IMG/VR virus record: IMGVR_UViG_3300046028_005522
Span: 1-55,131 of that record
Reading direction: 5' to 3' (one strand)
From: a virus
Length of the DNA stretch: 55,131 nucleotides
How positions within the stretch are numbered: position 1 is the stretch's first letter; every line of letters starts with the position of its first letter. A model generated the notes under the pieces. That model did no database searches. It was not told the origin of the DNA and saw only the letters and a program-made list of their open reading frames with translations. The translations under genes were made by a program, and so were the position numbers. Positions 12,920 to 51,395 of this stretch are shown one piece after another.

Positions 12920-13569
12920 ATGTATCTATAATATCTACCAAGATTGATTTCTAACTCAGCTTGGTAGAATTGATCAACTGCTTGGCTTTTCCAAAAATTT
13001 TCAGTGTACAAAAAATAGTTTACTTCTTTCCATCGTGCCATGTGGTCAGCAGATTCTCGATAGTCAATAGCATGATAAAACTCTGGTGTAGTTTCTACAA
13101 CATCTGCAAATTCAACATTTAACACATTGGGTTTGTCGAGTACTGGTTGAAATGGGATCAAATAGTTTTTTGCAGTTTCTCTAGATTTGTCAACTAAATC
13201 TATTCCAGATAAGTTTTTCCAAGTAGGTAAAAAATAATGATGATGTACTCTTGCCCATCTATAAATTTTACTTTTAAATGTTGTTGTTGTAACTATCAAT
13301 ATTTTGTTAAAGTTATCTAACGGCAACTGGCCCGGCCAGCAATGTGTCCCAATCCAGGTATCATTTTTGGTGTCCATTAAAGACACTTTTTGCATAAACT
13401 TATCTGCATCGTAATCAAGCATTACTGTGCTTGTATCACCAATTTTGCCTACACTATGATGTATGCTATCAATCCCGCCGTTAGTACCTATTGGAGAAAA
13501 CAACCCTGTCATTATGTCACATAACAGGCCACCACAGGTATAGTGCGGAAAACAAATCAAATTAAGCAT
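12916..13569 (-). CDS. Possible P-loop sulfotransferase-like protein paired with radical SAM
   Basis: 217 residues from ATG at 13569, overlapping the radical SAM gene by 8 bp. It opens MLNLICFPHYTCGGLLCDIM, a strand-loop-helix that resembles the PAPS-binding loop of sulfotransferases. Then WIGTHCWPGQLPL, ILIVTTTTFKSKIYRWARVHHHY and a Trp/Tyr-rich end follow. The TH...P and later Ser/Arg pattern is compatible with sulfotransferases that bind PAPS, but the match is loose. If not a sulfotransferase, it is an unknown P-loop-like protein. Tight coupling suggests it acts with the radical SAM enzyme on the same substrate. Confidence 0.5.
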   Translation of the reverse strand: MLNLICFPHYTCGGLLCDIMTGLFSPIGTNGGIDSIHHSVGKIGDTSTVMLDYDADKFMQKVSLMDTKNDTWIGTHCWPGQLPLDNFNKILIVTTTTFKSKIYRWARVHHHYFLPTWKNLSGIDLVDKSRETAKNYLIPFQPVLDKPNVLNVEFADVVETTPEFYHAIDYRESADHMARWKEVNYFLYTENFWKSQAVDQFYQAELEINLGRYYRYI

Positions 13570-14668
13570 TAAAATACTCTTGCACCTCTGGAAATAATTG
13601 TCTCCAATTTGTTCCTCGTTGAAAATCAAGTTGATCAAGGTATTGCACTAGTTTTGCGGTGTTACCCGAATATGGTTTTTGATTGAGAGCAATTGTTACC
13701 TGATGGGTATTACCATATTTGGCTTTTATTTTGTTACGCAATTCTGGTGGTGTGTGCTCTAGGCCAAGTGTTCCGGTGCACAAATGCACATTAAAATCTG
13801 ATTTGTCACCGTATCTATTAGATCCAAGATGTTTGTTAAACCAAATTTCAAACTGATCAAAATAAAATATGTTTAGAGGATTTATAGTATGCTCGACTCC
13901 GAACATAACATTGCCAGGAACTGTGTTTATAGCACTATTTGCAAATTCTTCTAATTTTTCCCAACGGTATGGCCAACGTAGAAAACTAAATTGTTCATTA
14001 ACACCGTCAAGGCTTGCAATCCATTTGACTAACTTGAACTTTTCCCAAATTGCCATTATTGATTGAGTTGGCATGATACTAAAATTACTAGTATACTGTA
14101 TAGTTACATTACTAGGATTGGGAACTAACGACATAACTTTTGTGTGTGTGTCTGTCATTAACGGCTCGCCACCACCAAATTTAATATATTTTAATTCAGT
14201 TAGATCTTGATCGGATAACAAACTAATAAACTTGTCAGTAGTAACACCTTGACGATCATCGTTATGAAGTTGATGAATCTGTACTGGTTGTAGTACATTA
14301 TTTCTAAGATTTTCTTGGTACCAAAAACTGCTTGATCCTGAGTTACACGATGGACAAGCTAGATTGCACTTTTTGTTTACTGCTACTGTTAAAAATTCTA
14401 GTTTGTTGTTGGCCCCTGTTATAGTGTCAAACGATGCTAGTCGAAAACTGTGTGCTCCTCTAGATTCAGCGTCAATACAAATTTTACAAGAAGTATCAAC
14501 CTTTGCATCTACCCAATGCATCCTATGAGTTGTTAATTGCTTTGACAAATCTTTATCTGGGTCTACGCTGTTCTCTTCAGCAAAAAAACAACACGGAGAC
14601 ATGGTAAACGTAGTAGTGTTATTATTATAAACCAATCCATTGGTTAAATGTCTACAAAACTCGGACAT
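13562..14668 (-). CDS. Twitch-type radical SAM protein
   Basis: 368 residues starting MSEFCRHLTNG at 14668, just after the helicase stop. A leading Cys-containing twitch-like region (FCRHL...FTMSPCCFF, then CKIC) binds an auxiliary cluster in related proteins. The radical SAM core is NKKCNLACPSCNSG (CxxxCxxC for the [4Fe-4S] cluster) and KFGGGEPLM for SAM binding. The enzyme would generate a 5'-deoxyadenosyl radical to modify an unknown substrate. It is one of four such proteins here and is coupled to a possible sulfotransferase. Codon and operon context are phage-like. Confidence 0.85.
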   Translation of the reverse strand: MSEFCRHLTNGLVYNNNTTTFTMSPCCFFAEENSVDPDKDLSKQLTTHRMHWVDAKVDTSCKICIDAESRGAHSFRLASFDTITGANNKLEFLTVAVNKKCNLACPSCNSGSSSFWYQENLRNNVLQPVQIHQLHNDDRQGVTTDKFISLLSDQDLTELKYIKFGGGEPLMTDTHTKVMSLVPNPSNVTIQYTSNFSIMPTQSIMAIWEKFKLVKWIASLDGVNEQFSFLRWPYRWEKLEEFANSAINTVPGNVMFGVEHTINPLNIFYFDQFEIWFNKHLGSNRYGDKSDFNVHLCTGTLGLEHTPPELRNKIKAKYGNTHQVTIALNQKPYSGNTAKLVQYLDQLDFQRGTNWRQLFPEVQEYFNA

Positions 14669-14669
14669 G

Positions 14670-16115
14670 TTATGATGTTTTGATTTTGCCCAACAACTGC
14701 TTGAGCTTGGCGCTTTGTACATCGGCTGTGACTTTTGGCGCTTCTAAATCAAAACCTTCTCGAGCTTGTGGTCGTTCCCAAGGTACAGACTTGGCATCGT
14801 CTGCGGCTGCACTAACCAGGCTTTTTGCTTTGATCGAGTCCATGATACTTGTACTGGGCTTTTTACTAAACCCGTTTTCGCTATCATCCCCACCTTCATC
14901 AGTAATGCGCATAGTTTCAATGTTGTACTCCAAATCAATCTTTTGACCAACGCCGGTCGAACTTCGACTCTTCATACACTGGATCTGATACTTGCCGCGC
15001 TCTTTCATTGCACGACTTGTAAAGATACCAAACACGTTATCTGCTGTGTTGATCTTGGAAATACCACCCGAAATATGCGAGTGATCAAATTCAATTTCTT
15101 CCACAGCTGATCGATTCAACTGTGACGCAGTTACCATCAAGATGCCCAGTTCTTTGGCCAAGTTACGCAGTTCTTCTGAAACATACTTGTCCTTCACAAA
15201 CAAGTCATTTGGCGAAACTTTTGCACTCACAGGCATCAACAAGTCCAAGTAATCAATCATCACAAAGTCTACCTTCTTGCCTGTTTGAATTTGATACTCT
15301 TTCAAATAAGCACGAATGTCATTGATGTTTGATTGTGCGGGCAGGCCTTTTACTTGATAGTTGCCTGACTTTTTGGCCACCAGCTTGACTTTGAGCTCTG
15401 TAGTGTCTATGTCCTTGCGAATGTCTTTGGTGCTCATGTTGGTCAACATGGCATCTGTTCTCAAACTAGTAAGCTCTTCTGAAAGTTCTAGTGTAATGTA
15501 CACACCGCTAATTCCTTGCTGTAGCCAGTTAAGCGCAATGTTCATCATGACCAAGCTCTTGCCTGATCCTGAGCCGCCTGCAAAAATGTTGAGTTCGCCG
15601 CGACTGAATCCGCCATACAACAATCTATCCAGTTGTGGCCATCCTGTGCTTACTTGCCCGCCCGAGTTAAAGTATTTCTCAATGCGAGCCTTAGGATCAG
15701 CAAAGTAGTCTGTGCCCATGTCCTTGGTAAGTGATATCTGTACTGCATCCTTGATGAGTTTTTCAACAGGATCATATTCACCTTTTTCAAGTAAGTCTGC
15801 GGCTTTTAAAATAGCACGTTCTAGTTCCTGGCGCCGAGTAAATGCTTCAAACTCGCCCATGAACCAGTCAAAGTGACCTTCGTTCAGGTCCGGCACTGAT
15901 TGCAGTTTAACGCCAGTGGTAGCAGAAATCTGTGTGCGCTCCGGCAGGGTCTTGTGCTTGTCAGAATGTTCTTTAATGAACTCAGCCGCAGGTCTCAAAC
16001 TTTTGTCAAAGTTCTGTGGGTTGTAGATATTTTGAACACGCACATAACTTTGTGCATCCTCCAACATCATTTCTAGAAATAAACGTTGAACGTCAAGTCC
16101 GTATTCTTTTAACAA
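14670..16115 (-). CDS. Replicative DNA helicase (T4 gp41/DnaB-like)
   Basis: About 481 residues. RecA-type core: GGFSRGELNIFAGGSGSGKS (Walker A), VYITLELSEE, VDFVMIDYLDLL (Walker B), VTASQLNRSA, and an arginine-finger region near KSRSSTGVGQK. This is the hexameric helicase that unwinds DNA at the fork with the primase next to it. The start is a TTG with AAGGAAAA upstream, overlapping primase by 23 bp; no suitable ATG exists nearby without losing conserved N-terminal helices. The C-terminal ~70 residues are Ala/Ser/Lys-rich and probably flexible. Confidence 0.9.
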   Translation of the reverse strand: MLKEYGLDVQRLFLEMMLEDAQSYVRVQNIYNPQNFDKSLRPAAEFIKEHSDKHKTLPERTQISATTGVKLQSVPDLNEGHFDWFMGEFEAFTRRQELERAILKAADLLEKGEYDPVEKLIKDAVQISLTKDMGTDYFADPKARIEKYFNSGGQVSTGWPQLDRLLYGGFSRGELNIFAGGSGSGKSLVMMNIALNWLQQGISGVYITLELSEELTSLRTDAMLTNMSTKDIRKDIDTTELKVKLVAKKSGNYQVKGLPAQSNINDIRAYLKEYQIQTGKKVDFVMIDYLDLLMPVSAKVSPNDLFVKDKYVSEELRNLAKELGILMVTASQLNRSAVEEIEFDHSHISGGISKINTADNVFGIFTSRAMKERGKYQIQCMKSRSSTGVGQKIDLEYNIETMRITDEGGDDSENGFSKKPSTSIMDSIKAKSLVSAAADDAKSVPWERPQAREGFDLEAPKVTADVQSAKLKQLLGKIKTS

Positions 16116-40571: not shown

Positions 40572-40579
40572 GCAGGTAT

Positions 40580-41032
40580 TTACACCTGGATGTCTTCCAT
40601 GCCAGCAGTTCTTAGCCGTACAACATGCCCCATTTGCCACTGTTTGGTATCCAGGCCCTTCATGATACCCAGCCAACGATTACGTAGGTATGCTACTTCG
40701 TTGATTATGGTTTCATAATCAATCACTTCATCTTCGCCATCTACATACTTTTCAGCATCACGTGACGTAAGCGCACGAGCATAGCCTTCCAGATACTTTT
40801 GGAAGTGCTTTCTGCGGATCTTACGCAGTTGGATATTGAGAAAGTTCAACACAGCTTCAATTTCTTGAAGCTGGTTGTATCTAAACTCAGTAATGCCAGG
40901 AAGTGCTGTGATGTTTTTTTCAACAATTCCAGCAATGCGGCAGTCTTTTTTAGCGTCAGTTATTTCACGCTCGTAGTGTGCTATAAAATCTGGAATAGCA
41001 TCAAGATTAGCAACTACTCGACTATACCACAT
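40580..41032 (-). CDS. uvsY: Recombination mediator UvsY
   Basis: 150 residues. The conserved signature of marine-type UvsY is clear: LDAIPDFIAHYEREITDAKK, then NITALPGITEFRYNQLQEIE, LNIQLRKIRRKHFQKYLEGY, and DGEDEVIDYETIINEVAYLR. UvsY loads the UvsX recombinase onto DNA covered by gp32. Coupled (TAATG) to the small acidic gene and near uvsX and gp32, as in related phages. Confidence 0.9.
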   Translation of the reverse strand: MWYSRVVANLDAIPDFIAHYEREITDAKKDCRIAGIVEKNITALPGITEFRYNQLQEIEAVLNFLNIQLRKIRRKHFQKYLEGYARALTSRDAEKYVDGEDEVIDYETIINEVAYLRNRWLGIMKGLDTKQWQMGHVVRLRTAGMEDIQV

Positions 41033-45692: not shown

Positions 45693-45700
45693 TTATTTAT
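45693..45700 (-). promoter_or_regulatory. T4-late-type promoter motif with minimal leader
   Basis: ATAAATAA on the minus strand, 6 bases before the ATG at 45686 and overlapping the terminase stop codon. If transcription starts where T4 late promoters start, the mRNA would be nearly leaderless. Confidence 0.6.
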
Positions 45701-47280
45701 CGCATCATTGATATGAACGGCATAGGCTCAACAATCATATCTCCGTGGTCTTTTAGGTGTGTATCTAGGTCTGCATGATAGGTTTGCAATAGTAACAGCA
45801 TACGCACAGCCAACAAACTGGCCATTACTAAGTCGTCAGTTTCACCTGGTTTTGCAGCATAACTGGTGCCCAAGGCCACAAACGTTTTTAGTTCTGATAC
45901 CAAGGGTCTTGAGTTAATTTTCATACGCCCAGACTCTATTAGGATTTTGAACTTGTTGCAAGCTGTAATTTTGCTTTTATTTGTGGTGTTAAAACCCTTG
46001 CGGAATCGGCGCCCTGTTGTGCCTGTTACAGAGTTGTCACTAAGAAAGTAGCCAGGAATGTTATCTTCGCCGTATTCTGCTATGCTGATTAAGGCGGCTT
46101 CGCCAATGGTGTTGTTTTCCACTGAGTAGTAAATGCTTTTTTCATCTTTGACTACAGCATGCAGTTCTTTCACAATATCTGCTAGAATCCGTATCTGTGT
46201 GGGAATATCAGTTTTGTTGTGGCGCCACTCGGCAATTTGATCAGTAGTTCTAGCATCAAATACCTGTATGGCAGCAGGGTCTCCACCGGTGCCTAAGCTA
46301 GGATCTAGTGCCACAACATACATGCCATCTTTTACAGGGTCTTTGTACCAACGCACCTGACCTGATCTACGAGCAGGTTCTGCACCCTCTAAGTCCATGA
46401 GCTTGATAGGATTGATCAGTGTCTCGTCGTTAATGACAAATTCGCAGTCCATTTCTCTGCGAAAACGCTCGTCGCCTAGCTGTGCCAGTTGTTCAGAACC
46501 CCATTGATCCCCGCGTTCAGGATGTTCACGCCAGTATGATCTAAATGCACGGAATCCATTAATACCCAGTTCCGTAGTGTTGCCATGTTCATCTTCTGTC
46601 TTGTTAGCACCCTTCCACAAAAACGCAAACTGATCCTCGTCTGAGTTGGGGGTGCTTGTGATAATTGCCTTACCACCAGTGGCTAATGTGGGCGAAATTG
46701 AAGTCCAAAACTCTTTGGCAATAGTAGGGCGCACAAATGCAAATTCGTCAGCGTACAACAAGGATATCGACATACCTCGGCCTGTTGTTTCTGTTGTGGT
46801 TTGACTCACAATGCGTGATCCGTTTTCAAACTCTATTGAGCCTTTGTTGTAACTGGTAGCACCTGCTCGAATGTGATTTGGGCACAGTTCATAAGCATAT
46901 CTAATACGCTGCATGATCTCTTGTGCACCGGTGTATTTGTGTGCGGCAATGAGAATGGTAGAATCTGGCACAAACATAGCATACCACAACAGGTACCCAG
47001 CAGCTGATGTTGACTTCCCTGTCTGTCGAGGCATTAAGGATATTGAATATCTGTAATTGTGATAGGTAGCAATCAGTCGCTTTTGATAGTCAAAAGGGTG
47101 ATACAACATCTTGCCGCGTGTGGGATGCTGGATAAAGAAAAAGTTATCCATAAAGTACAAAGGACCGTTCACAGGATCAGCACACAGCGCAAACTCTGTG
47201 AGTTCTTGTTCAGTGTAAGTCTCTACCCTGTGTGGTGCTTTGACCAGTACTGTTTCTAAATTACTTTTTAGACCAATCAT
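45697..47280 (-). CDS. Large terminase subunit (T4 gp17-like)
   Basis: 527 residues. Packaging ATPase: SLMPRQTGKSTSAAG (Walker A, ~residue 82-96), ISLLYADEFAFVRPT (Walker B with catalytic Glu), TSTPNSDEDQF (coupling motif). Nuclease domain: VVALDPSLGTGGDPAAIQVF (first acidic residue, ~318), SVENNTIGEAALI, and AKPGETDDLVMASLLAV (last acidic residues). It cuts concatemers and drives DNA into proheads. Its start overlaps the SGNH gene by 20 bp, which places terminase at the end of an operon of modification enzymes. Confidence 0.93.
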   Translation of the reverse strand: MIGLKSNLETVLVKAPHRVETYTEQELTEFALCADPVNGPLYFMDNFFFIQHPTRGKMLYHPFDYQKRLIATYHNYRYSISLMPRQTGKSTSAAGYLLWYAMFVPDSTILIAAHKYTGAQEIMQRIRYAYELCPNHIRAGATSYNKGSIEFENGSRIVSQTTTETTGRGMSISLLYADEFAFVRPTIAKEFWTSISPTLATGGKAIITSTPNSDEDQFAFLWKGANKTEDEHGNTTELGINGFRAFRSYWREHPERGDQWGSEQLAQLGDERFRREMDCEFVINDETLINPIKLMDLEGAEPARRSGQVRWYKDPVKDGMYVVALDPSLGTGGDPAAIQVFDARTTDQIAEWRHNKTDIPTQIRILADIVKELHAVVKDEKSIYYSVENNTIGEAALISIAEYGEDNIPGYFLSDNSVTGTTGRRFRKGFNTTNKSKITACNKFKILIESGRMKINSRPLVSELKTFVALGTSYAAKPGETDDLVMASLLAVRMLLLLQTYHADLDTHLKDHGDMIVEPMPFISMMR

Positions 47281-48016
47281 CTAACATCCTTTCCGCCAAG
47301 CGTTGGTGCCCGCCCGGACCACCATGCATGCGATCTCTTGCATAGCCAATTTCTTCTCTACTCATGGCCATGTGGTCAAATGCATCGTATACAAAAAATG
47401 GAATATTAACTTCAGCACACATAGCTCGAATTGCCAATTTATTTTTTTTCTGATTCAATCTAGAATTTTCATCCATGGTGTGCCAGTGCTTTAAGAAACT
47501 GTCAATTTCACTTGCACTGTTAGATTCACTTTGCGGCATGTAATTTTCAACTGGAGGCACACCTGCTGCTCTTATCAATTCAAATCTACTAGGCGGCGGG
47601 GCTAACATAAACACTACTTTGGGTTTTAACCTTGGGATCCAATATTCTGCCAGTCTAAAACAAGTATCTGCTGATGTTCCGCCCCAGGCCATAGTATACG
47701 GCACAAGTCCCAACTGCCGGCCAACTATTTGTGGCCAGGTGCTTTCAAGCGGCAATCCAATACCAATAGTAAAACTGCAACCCAGTGCTATCATGCAATC
47801 ACGGTCATCAATTTCATCACTGCGAAATCCGTAGCGGTTAAATTTGTATGTGATAGCACCTGGTTCTAACCATCCTTGCTGGCGAAAATATTCACGGTAT
47901 TCAGATACCTGGCAAAGTTTTTCAAAACTTTCTTTAGTATCAGTTGGCATAAACTCTGATGTAGTGCCGGCGTCGTTTACTCCTGGGTGCCAAGGAGGAT
48001 TTTCAAATTTTCTCAT
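47261..48016 (-). CDS. SGNH-hydrolase-like protein (copy 3)
   Basis: 251 residues starting MRKFENPPWHPGVNDAGT at 48016, ATGA overlap with the radical SAM gene. MIALGCSFTIGIGLPLEST is the GxS nucleophile block, MAWGGTSADTCFRLAE the Gly/Asn-like block, and RDRMHGGPGGHQRLAERML the D..H block with the final catalytic His. The middle helix (VVFMLAPPPSRFELI) is typical. Probably an esterase/acyltransferase acting on a glycan, lipid or peptide. It ends inside the terminase gene. Confidence 0.78.
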   Translation of the reverse strand: MRKFENPPWHPGVNDAGTTSEFMPTDTKESFEKLCQVSEYREYFRQQGWLEPGAITYKFNRYGFRSDEIDDRDCMIALGCSFTIGIGLPLESTWPQIVGRQLGLVPYTMAWGGTSADTCFRLAEYWIPRLKPKVVFMLAPPPSRFELIRAAGVPPVENYMPQSESNSASEIDSFLKHWHTMDENSRLNQKKNKLAIRAMCAEVNIPFFVYDAFDHMAMSREEIGYARDRMHGGPGGHQRLAERMLDDWSKK

Positions 48017-49158
48017 TGCATTTCCTTTGCTAGTGTTGGCCATAACTCAACAAACTTGTTTGTTTTTTTCAACGTGTTTTCTATTTCTAAGTGCCATGCC
48101 AACGTTTTTGATGGTTTAAAATTTGTTTGGTCTCTAAGATAACTATTATCTTGTAATGTGTTACGATAAGTTTTTAAAACATCTATTGCTAAATTTCTTC
48201 TGTCGCCATACTTATCTATCACTTGATTGATTTCTGCAACAGCCAAGTCTCGTAATGTTTGAGAATGTCTTCGTATGTCTAGTTCCATTGGATGATTGAG
48301 TTCGCACCAATAGATGCCTAACTCTTCTGCAATACAAAAATCATAGTACTCCATGAGATCAAATGCACAGTAAATTGAATAAGCTGGGTGTGCGTTTACG
48401 TTCTGCCCATCCAGTTTCATTTGTCGTAAATTTTTCACAAACTGTTCCCAATTTGCTCGATCTCTTACATATTCAAACTTTTCTTTGTTGGCATTGTCAA
48501 AGCTAACCATCCATTCTACCTTAGGCCATGTTTTGAGAATTTGATAGATAGGATTGGTTGTGATTTCCATGCTGAGATTGGTTGTGACCATTACTGATAC
48601 TGTGGCAGGATTAAGATAACTTAAAAATACATCCAACCCTTTTTGCAGCAATGGTTCTCCGCCACCAAGACTGAGCCCTTGTATGTTGTGGCCTTGTGTC
48701 TTGGCTAATTCAATTAAATCATCATGTTCGTTTTTGACATGATTGATAGGAATTTTTTTCACGCTTTGCCAAGCAGTTGATGTTTGATCGTTACAATACA
48801 CGCAAGTTAAATTGCAAAGATTACTCCAATTAACTACCAAGTGTTCCAGCTTAAAAAAATCTATGTCAGCATCAATTGCGGCCAACGTCTCTTCACTTGC
48901 ATGTCTTACTGTTCTGCCACTGCTGCCCGTAGTTTCTTCCAAGCGTTTGCACCAGCTACAACCAGGATGCCATTCGCCACGAGCCATAGCTTCTCGCATA
49001 CTGGTAACTTTGGGACCATGTATGATCTCTTGAATGGTGTTTTTCTTGTTGTTACCAATCATGTCAACACAATGAAAACACGGACTGGTTTCACCAGCTT
49101 GATCAATGTTGAGACTGGTCCAGGGTGCTGAACAAAACGTAGGACTTTTGGTTATCAT
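48013..49158 (-). CDS. Twitch-type radical SAM protein
   Basis: 381 residues. N-terminal twitch: PTFCSAPWTSLNIDQAGETS, CFHCVDM, HPGCSWCKRLEETTGSSGRT. Radical SAM core: NWSNLCNLTCVYCNDQTST (CxxxCxxC) and LSLGGGEPLLQKGLDVFL. C-terminal helical region with ELNHPMELDIRRHSQTLRD. Close in architecture to the fused protein at 49709. Role: radical modification of an unknown substrate, probably in cooperation with the 2OG oxygenase encoded immediately upstream (TAATG overlap). Confidence 0.88.
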   Translation of the reverse strand: MITKSPTFCSAPWTSLNIDQAGETSPCFHCVDMIGNNKKNTIQEIIHGPKVTSMREAMARGEWHPGCSWCKRLEETTGSSGRTVRHASEETLAAIDADIDFFKLEHLVVNWSNLCNLTCVYCNDQTSTAWQSVKKIPINHVKNEHDDLIELAKTQGHNIQGLSLGGGEPLLQKGLDVFLSYLNPATVSVMVTTNLSMEITTNPIYQILKTWPKVEWMVSFDNANKEKFEYVRDRANWEQFVKNLRQMKLDGQNVNAHPAYSIYCAFDLMEYYDFCIAEELGIYWCELNHPMELDIRRHSQTLRDLAVAEINQVIDKYGDRRNLAIDVLKTYRNTLQDNSYLRDQTNFKPSKTLAWHLEIENTLKKTNKFVELWPTLAKEMQ

Positions 49159-49718
49159 TAGATCAATGGCGCTAATAAGGTATAGCTACTTAGTCTAAAA
49201 GTTCCTGGTGGTACTTCGCTTAACATTGCATGCCAGTGTAAATGAGTATACTCGTTTTTTCTAGGAAAATTTAACATTATGTAACCAGTGTTTGGTATGG
49301 ATAAAAATTGTTTTCTTACTGGAGCTCCATTCTTATTGTGATAAAAACAAGTTCCCAGTTGCTCATGAGCAGCAATCCAATTCAGCTGCATGGCTCCAGA
49401 CAACTCACCATCAGTGTGCATCAAACATGTAAATCCTGGCTCGTCCAGCCACCAGGTAGAACCATATGATACTTCTAATTTTCTTCCAATGACTTCTCCT
49501 ACTTTAGACCATATTGTGTTTATATGGTCGTCCCACTCTCTAGTCCAGGGGATACTATCAGTTAAAATACGCCGACGTAACCAATGTTCTTGTCCTTCTT
49601 GTCGTATCCAGGGCAAATCTAACCATGAGGTAGTCAGCACTTTTTCCACAAGCTCTGGAGACACTATATCTTTTACTTCAAAAAGATTGTTATATTCGTC
49701 AACAGGTGTTATTTGCAT
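49158..49718 (-). CDS. 2OG-Fe(II) oxygenase
   Basis: 186 residues starting MQITPVDEYNNLFEVKD at 49718; a longer start at 49739 is possible. FTCLMHTDGELSGAMQLNWI carries the HxD iron pair, and EYTHLHWHAMLSEVPPGTFRLSSYT the distal His and the Arg that holds 2-oxoglutarate; GYIMLNFPRKN is the strand before. This is a more typical oxygenase signature than that of the pair at 3274-4910. It sits between two radical SAM genes with overlaps of 10 bp and 1 bp. Substrate unknown; peptide hydroxylation is one possibility. Confidence 0.8.
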   Translation of the reverse strand: MQITPVDEYNNLFEVKDIVSPELVEKVLTTSWLDLPWIRQEGQEHWLRRRILTDSIPWTREWDDHINTIWSKVGEVIGRKLEVSYGSTWWLDEPGFTCLMHTDGELSGAMQLNWIAAHEQLGTCFYHNKNGAPVRKQFLSIPNTGYIMLNFPRKNEYTHLHWHAMLSEVPPGTFRLSSYTLLAPLI

Positions 49719-51313
49719 AGGAATGCCAGTTCCGGCCATAAACGTTCAAACTCTCCAGCTTTATCTGGATGATACCGAGTTTCATTGTCATGTATGTGCT
49801 TGAAGAATGCTGTGTCAATTTTACTGACTTTGCTCTCACTCAATCTGTTGCGATAGGTGGCTAACGCATTGTCAAAGAACTGGCGTTCAGCAGGAGTGGC
49901 AATATTCATCTCATAGAAACGTTCAATCTCTGCTATGGCTTCCCGCGCAACACCAGCACCATGCAAGAATGGATCAAGGTATTCAGGTTGAAACAAGTTT
50001 TGCCACAGCACTGTGGTGCCTGTATCTTCAGCAAACTGTCTTAACTCACAGATGCGTGTGGCATTGTAAATGTTGTATACTGCATGTATACCGCCCCATT
50101 GACCTTGCGTGGTCATGAGATGTTTGATCTTACTCAAGTTTTCTTTGATCAACACCCAGCTGGCACCATGGCGCACATATTCCACGCGGTCACCTACATT
50201 GTCAAAGCTCATTGACCAGCCTACTCGATTGCGTGTTGATAACTTTTGGAATATCTTGTTTGAATCCAAGTCCACATTCAAGTTTGTGATCAGTGTAACA
50301 ATAGCATCTTTAGGAATGACATCTAACAGTCTATTGTTTTCTGGCAGCAACAGTGGCTCGCCACCTACAAGTGCTACTTCGTGTATGTGTTCATAGTGCT
50401 GTTCAATGAAGTCGCATACACTATCATAATAAGGTCTTGCACCTGACTTGAATGGAACGCCTTTGAGGCTGGCCCATTTTGAACTGCATGACTCGCCACA
50501 GTAGTTGCAACTCAAGTTACATGTGGTATTCCATCGCACATCCACAATCACAGGATAATGATACTGATCACCAGCAGTGGCATAGTCAAAGTTGGGATTC
50601 ACATTGTTGTGCCACTGGCGTTCAGAATCTGCACCAAAGCGTTCGGCTCGCACACAGTTAGAACAGTATTCGTGCGGTTCACCTTGGGCCAAACTGGTGC
50701 GTATCTCTGTCATGAGATTTGAGTTAAGGATCTGCTCAATTGTTTGTGTATTGAGATTGCCCAGCAGGTTGGGATTGCCAGCACAGCAAGTTTTAACGTC
50801 ACCTCTGGGATTGATATGCAAGCCACGCCAAGGGGCTGCGCAAAAGAAATTGCTCATCCCGTATTTACAGGAGTATAATTGGCACCAACTTGTTTTGGCT
50901 TCGCCGTAGTACTCACGTGCAAAACCATTAGCAATCAACTGCTGACGTAGGCTAACACCGTTTAACAGCACATCTCCCAGTACACGCCCGCCATACTTGT
51001 CCCAGTCCATGAGTACAATTTGACGCTTTTGACTGGCAGCAATCAGTTGTTTGGTAAATGCACTAGCAGCTTCGCCGCGCTGTGCTTCACTAGCACACTG
51101 AGCACGATGTCCTTTTTCAGGGGTGTCCACACCAAACACTCGAATACTGAGTTCTGGTTTAAGTGGTGCTGGTAACCAGGTAGCAGCAATACCCACTGTG
51201 TCGCCGTCGATTACTCTGGTGATCACAGCGTCATAGGTAACGCCAGGTCGTTGTTTGGGTTGTGCTAGGGCCAGCACAGGTAATACAAGTAAGAGTAGAA
51301 GTAGTTTTTTCAT
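49709..51313 (-). CDS. Signal peptide + thermonuclease domain fused in frame to twitch radical SAM
   Basis: 534 residues from ATG at 51313. Residues 1-18 are a signal peptide (MKKLLLLLLVLPVLALA). Then a complete staphylococcal-nuclease domain: VITRVIDGDTVGI (Ca-binding Asp), IRVFGVDTPEKG (Arg, Asp, Glu) and KYGGRVLGD (second Arg), ending EYYGEAKTSWC. With no stop it continues into a full twitch radical SAM protein: MSNFFCAAPWRGLHINPRGD, NTTCNLSCNYCGES (CxxxCxxC), VALVGGEPLLLPE. An internal ATG (50857) preceded by GTAAATAC would give a separate 382-aa radical SAM protein of the same size as the gene at 48013. So two products are likely: a secreted fusion and/or a cytoplasmic radical SAM enzyme. 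A longer start at 51364 is less likely. Confidence 0.85.
   Translation of the reverse strand: MKKLLLLLLVLPVLALAQPKQRPGVTYDAVITRVIDGDTVGIAATWLPAPLKPELSIRVFGVDTPEKGHRAQCASEAQRGEAASAFTKQLIAASQKRQIVLMDWDKYGGRVLGDVLLNGVSLRQQLIANGFAREYYGEAKTSWCQLYSCKYGMSNFFCAAPWRGLHINPRGDVKTCCAGNPNLLGNLNTQTIEQILNSNLMTEIRTSLAQGEPHEYCSNCVRAERFGADSERQWHNNVNPNFDYATAGDQYHYPVIVDVRWNTTCNLSCNYCGESCSSKWASLKGVPFKSGARPYYDSVCDFIEQHYEHIHEVALVGGEPLLLPENNRLLDVIPKDAIVTLITNLNVDLDSNKIFQKLSTRNRVGWSMSFDNVGDRVEYVRHGASWVLIKENLSKIKHLMTTQGQWGGIHAVYNIYNATRICELRQFAEDTGTTVLWQNLFQPEYLDPFLHGAGVAREAIAEIERFYEMNIATPAERQFFDNALATYRNRLSESKVSKIDTAFFKHIHDNETRYHPDKAGEFERLWPELAFLCK
50861..50868 (-). promoter_or_regulatory. T4-late-type motif inside the nuclease-radical SAM fusion
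   Basis: GTAAATAC on the minus strand, 3 bases before the internal ATG of the radical SAM part (50857). It sits in frame at the domain junction, so the radical SAM part could be transcribed and translated alone. Confidence 0.5.
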
Positions 51314-51317
51314 AATT

Positions 51318-51395
51318 TTAATTTGAGAGTTCTTCCCAGCCCATTTTCCAAAGCAGATCAGCATTGGCCGCTGTGTAGGCCACTGCTACAGCCAT
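51318..51395 (-). CDS. Possible 25-residue microprotein
   Basis: Reads MAVAVAYTAANADLLWKMGW plus EELSN, starting in TAATG overlap with the upstream gene and ending 4 bases before the nuclease gene. The spacing is attractive, but the ribosome site (AAGG) is too close and the alternative is simply a leader. Low confidence. Confidence 0.3.
   Translation of the reverse strand: MAVAVAYTAANADLLWKMGWEELSN

Follow-up and report, generated by a model that had tools for sequence, protein, structure and literature searches.

A sense codon in place of a stop joins neighbouring thermonuclease and radical SAM genes in one T4-like phage contig

Two complete proteins in one open frame

We analyzed a 55,131-base virus record from IMG/VR, referred to here over its whole length as the window. 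Positions 51313-49709 of the minus strand form a single open frame without interruption, and an in-frame ATG further upstream, at 51364 on the same strand, is likewise open. The frame encodes, in order, a 145-aa thermonuclease with a putative signal peptide, seven codons, and a 382-aa twitch radical SAM protein. Its N-terminus reads MKKLLLLLLVLPVLALAQ..., the radical SAM part starts MSNFFCAAPW..., and the peptide across the nuclease/radical SAM junction is SWCQLYSCKYGMSNF. The original prediction had described one unbroken frame in which a nuclease with its catalytic residues is followed by a full twitch radical SAM protein, and we confirmed this; it had named no strand, and all of the features lie on the minus strand. 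It had also pointed to GTAAATAC-GGG-ATG as the start of a 382-residue protein equal in length to its radical SAM neighbour. This element is present at 50868-50855 and opens a protein of 382 residues, and the neighbouring gene encodes 381. The features of the locus are as follows.

50879..51313, minus strand: predicted secreted thermonuclease (SNase family), 145 aa, ending ...SWCQ; relatives conserve the SWCQ/N end
50876..50878, minus strand: codon TTA, a stop in every relative examined and TGA in the closest one, L004
50858..50875, minus strand: former intergenic spacer, now translated as YSCKYG; unchanged in L004
50857..50872, minus strand: short hairpin UCCUGU-AAAU-ACGGGA, in which the A of the start codon is the final paired base
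50862..50867, minus strand: TAAATA box similar to the T4 late TATA box, at a distance of 4 nt from the ATG of the radical SAM gene
49709..50857, minus strand: 382-aa radical SAM protein with a twitch domain and a conserved start codon of its own
45697-47280: T4-type large terminase, also in the window

The nuclease half matches the Pfam SNase family (PF00565) with 43.7 bits, against a cut-off of 21. Residues D21, R35, D40, and E43 of staphylococcal nuclease align with D38, R58, D63, and E66 of the window nuclease, and R110 is the counterpart of staphylococcal R87. This score and alignment back the earlier description of a complete nuclease domain with all catalytic residues. The N-terminus carries MKKLLLLLLVLPVLALA, which we judged by eye to be a putative Sec signal peptide. 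Other phage and bacterial thermonucleases (SNase PF00565; PHROG 452) have the same domain, catalytic residues, and signal-peptide-like N-terminus, and the SNases of phage records are 46-54% identical to the window nuclease domain. What sets the window protein apart from them is its C-terminal run-on into a radical SAM protein, seen only in the window contig.

The radical SAM half fits NCBIfam family NF033640 (N_Twi_rSAM) over its whole 382 aa, scoring 212 bits against a curated cut-off of 170 and covering model positions 1-394 of 398; its sole difference from the family is the apparently accidental N-terminal extension. The cysteines of the radical SAM CxxxCxxC motif (C113, C117, and C120) and of the N-terminal twitch/SPASM region (C6, C24, C25, C65, and C68) are invariant in 30 sequences. 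Modelled alone from residue 1, the radical SAM part gave a confident structure (pLDDT 89). The known structures that it matched were radical SAM enzymes, with anSME and SuiB the closest, at TM-scores of only ~0.4, so these matches do not indicate a substrate. The protein shares 31% identity with the 381-aa product of the neighbouring gene at 48013-49158. In all, the contig holds three twitch radical SAM genes (13562-14722, 48013-49158, and 49712-50857, minus strand), which have diverged to 24-31% identity. One T4-like phage genome from the environment has been reported to carry 12 radical SAM genes (PMC5332604).

The junction in related loci

We scanned IMG/VR with the whole fused protein and read the best 80 of at least 599 relatives in full, placing the two halves separately in each of the 80 loci before reading the junctions. 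In 50 loci the genes lie no more than 44 bases apart, and each of these has a stop codon after the SWCQ/N end of the nuclease, 21-44 bases ahead of the radical SAM ATG. The normal SWC terminus originally ascribed to the nuclease is thus kept in relatives; SWCNQ-like variation occurred once, in a more distant gene pair only. The two genes share a frame in 41 of the 50 adjacent pairs, in most of which the ATG follows the stop by seven or eight codons, and are in different frames in the other nine. They stand further apart, by 116 to 1272 bases, in 17 of the 80 loci. The radical SAM gene occurs without a nuclease in the DNA examined in 13 of the 80, one of which ends at a contig edge.

Junction DNA patterns were also searched in IMG/VR. 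A strict pattern found a stop in 55 of 55 contigs (30 TGA and 25 TAA). With a looser pattern, a stop was present at all 54 distinct true junctions (28 TAA and 26 TGA), counted after dropping identical copies and chance matches that lacked a radical SAM start. These two sets and the set of adjacent loci overlap. The in-frame fusion recurred at none of the 50 adjacent pairs and none of the 54 pattern junctions, although an established fusion should recur in related genomes. The exact 21-base TTA-junction string had no other copy in bacterial genome contigs, and annotated phage records returned nuclease-domain matches only, none covering 80% of the query. The original prediction had suggested looking for the same fusion in related phages, and had named a stop at the junction in independent sequence as the sign of two separate genes; every relative examined shows that stop. 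Our searches covered the best 80 of at least 599 relatives and the pattern matches, and a rare independent fusion may occur elsewhere.

In seven relatives (L033, L038, L041, L053, L058, L061, and L077), ~200 to 1100 bases lie between the nuclease and the radical SAM gene. The nuclease-radical SAM interval may therefore be a site of gene exchange.

Origin of the fused frame

The closest relative among the 80 loci, L004, encodes a 99% identical protein, and its DNA is 93% identical to the window over 8.7 kb. Within the frame, 19 of 535 codons differ, 14 of them silently. One of the five non-silent differences is codon 146, which is TTA in the window and TGA in L004; the six codons of the spacer encode the same residues in both. 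The near-identity to L004, the unchanged spacer, and the one stop-codon difference indicate that the stop loss is private and very recent. Judged by these sequence comparisons, the fusion is a single private, recent stop loss, either real or an assembly error, and not a new kind of protein. We are highly confident that two ordinary neighbouring T4-like phage genes, one for a thermonuclease bearing an export signal and one for a twitch radical SAM enzyme, form a single frame in the window contig only because the sense codon TTA replaces the nuclease stop. Wherever the radical SAM gene occurs, its start and the motif upstream of it are kept, which supports the two-gene reading, as does the confident model of the radical SAM part alone. 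The evolutionary read-through fusion proposed earlier therefore holds as the loss of one stop codon in one contig, and fails as an established fusion.

Two origins of the TTA codon deserve weight. We lean slightly toward a true, recent stop-loss mutation in the phage population, which would be neutral or only mildly harmful, since the separate radical SAM start is retained. The change from the TGA of L004 is an ordinary one-base difference, and only six codons, all open, lie between the genes, so that losing the stop gives the fusion automatically. The absence of a second example among the junctions examined counts against a mutation. That same uniqueness of TTA, the involvement of a single base, and the nature of the record, an assembled environmental virus, make it a substantial possibility that TTA is a sequencing or assembly error and that the phage has a stop like its relatives. 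The surrounding genes argue against such an error: none is broken, and most encode proteins nearly the same as their L004 counterparts, which indicates that errors are not common across the contig.

If the stop loss is real, the radical SAM enzyme would still be made separately, in the cytoplasm, from its own start behind the TAAATA box and hairpin. Translation beginning at the nuclease would yield an exported nuclease carrying a radical SAM tail, probably an inactive one. The original prediction had also raised a programmed two-product gene, yielding an exported nuclease-radical SAM protein along with a separate radical SAM protein. This is very improbable: the shared frame and short, mostly seven- or eight-codon interval of 41 of the 50 adjacent pairs would suit it, but TAA and TGA are used interchangeably, the spacing varies, nine of the 50 pairs are out of frame, the genes stand apart in other loci, and a radical SAM enzyme with [4Fe-4S] clusters is unlikely to be active after export in unfolded form by Sec. 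We rejected programmed fusion or readthrough on the frame, stop identity, and gene order seen in relatives. A one-base stop loss in one assembled contig can mimic a new multidomain enzyme, and the fusion itself matters little.

The TAAATA box and hairpin at the radical SAM start

The TAAATA/hairpin element at the radical SAM start is a more interesting lead than the fusion. The window reads TGTAAATA where the T4 late box reads TATAAATA, a match at 7 of 8 positions. Nearly all relatives have TAAATA 4 nt ahead of the radical SAM ATG, regardless of what lies upstream. In related loci it is strongly concentrated 4-7 nt before the start codons of genes in many groupings; a weaker second cluster lies near 17-25 nt. 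These groupings come from single-linkage clustering, which merged some families (nuclease and radical SAM, for example, fall in one cluster), and their number varies with the distance range and the clustering (23 cluster-by-distance counts versus 15 clusters). Permuted motifs gave a weaker positional peak, and overlapping ones such as ATAAAT gave a shifted echo. TAAATA is not over-represented in the window overall (21 seen versus 27.5 expected); only its position before starts is. The two distance classes differ in their ribosome-binding signals: a Shine-Dalgarno-like string accompanies 2 of 159 short-distance sites versus 31 of 46 long-distance sites. We searched the junction for a sigma-70 promoter or an intrinsic terminator and found neither. 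The internal late-type promoter and start of the original prediction thus stand as a conserved sequence element and start, whereas the promoter role is something we infer. In T4 late promoters, the TATA box lies approximately one helical turn upstream of the transcription start (PMC2988020). With that geometry, transcription of the short-distance class would begin at the AUG or close to it.

The window hairpin has a predicted stability of -6.4 kcal/mol (z -3.3), and its stem includes one G-U pair. TAAATA is enclosed by a Watson-Crick stem of 4 bp or longer at 26 of 54 distinct radical SAM sites versus 5.7 expected, and at 9 of 47 sites of other genes versus 1.6 expected, where the expectation comes from shuffling left flanks among sites and ignores relatedness, so that the support is overstated. 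When the test was made stricter and confined to 29 unique flank combinations, p was ~0.01, a figure that likewise overstates the support. The radical SAM stems vary in sequence yet pair (CCCG/CGGG, CCTG/CAGG, ACCG/CGGT, and GCTG/CAGC), and stems at other genes include GCCA/TGGC and ACCC/GGGT.

In the T4 genes e, soc, and I-TevI, a late promoter lies beside a hairpin that silences read-through mRNA (PMC3014915, PMC2988022). The window likewise has a late-type TATA core within a hairpin that touches the start codon. Unlike the T4 cases, it has no Shine-Dalgarno sequence to hide, and its hairpin is only ~4-6 bp. With the box 4-7 nt from the ATG, the predicted transcript would also have little or no leader. 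Control of the e and I-TevI kind, in which a hairpin on read-through mRNA sequesters a Shine-Dalgarno sequence, does not fit: the hairpin is present here, but only the 2 short-distance sites of 159 noted above have such a sequence.

The placement of TAAATA without a Shine-Dalgarno sequence suggests leaderless late mRNAs. We tentatively propose that this T4-like group makes two kinds of late mRNA: leadered ones, with the box ~16-26 nt before the ATG and a Shine-Dalgarno sequence, and leaderless ones, with TAAATA 4-7 nt before the ATG. At the radical SAM gene and some others, the box lies in a short hairpin abutting the AUG, and translation would then be poor from read-through transcripts and efficient only from those that begin at the AUG or close to it. 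Among the papers available to us, a search on leaderless late mRNA in T4-like phages found none describing such transcripts. The element predicts leaderless late transcription across one widespread group of T4-like environmental phages.

TAAATA sites of the two classes, 4-7 nt before an ATG without a Shine-Dalgarno sequence and 16-26 nt before an ATG with one, were noted across the window positions 45699, 40582, 8369, 7953, and 50867 (minus strand) and the loci L004 to L138. The box often lies within a short hairpin right before the ATG, as at 50857-50872 and 40573-40588 in the window and in L040, L085, and L088.
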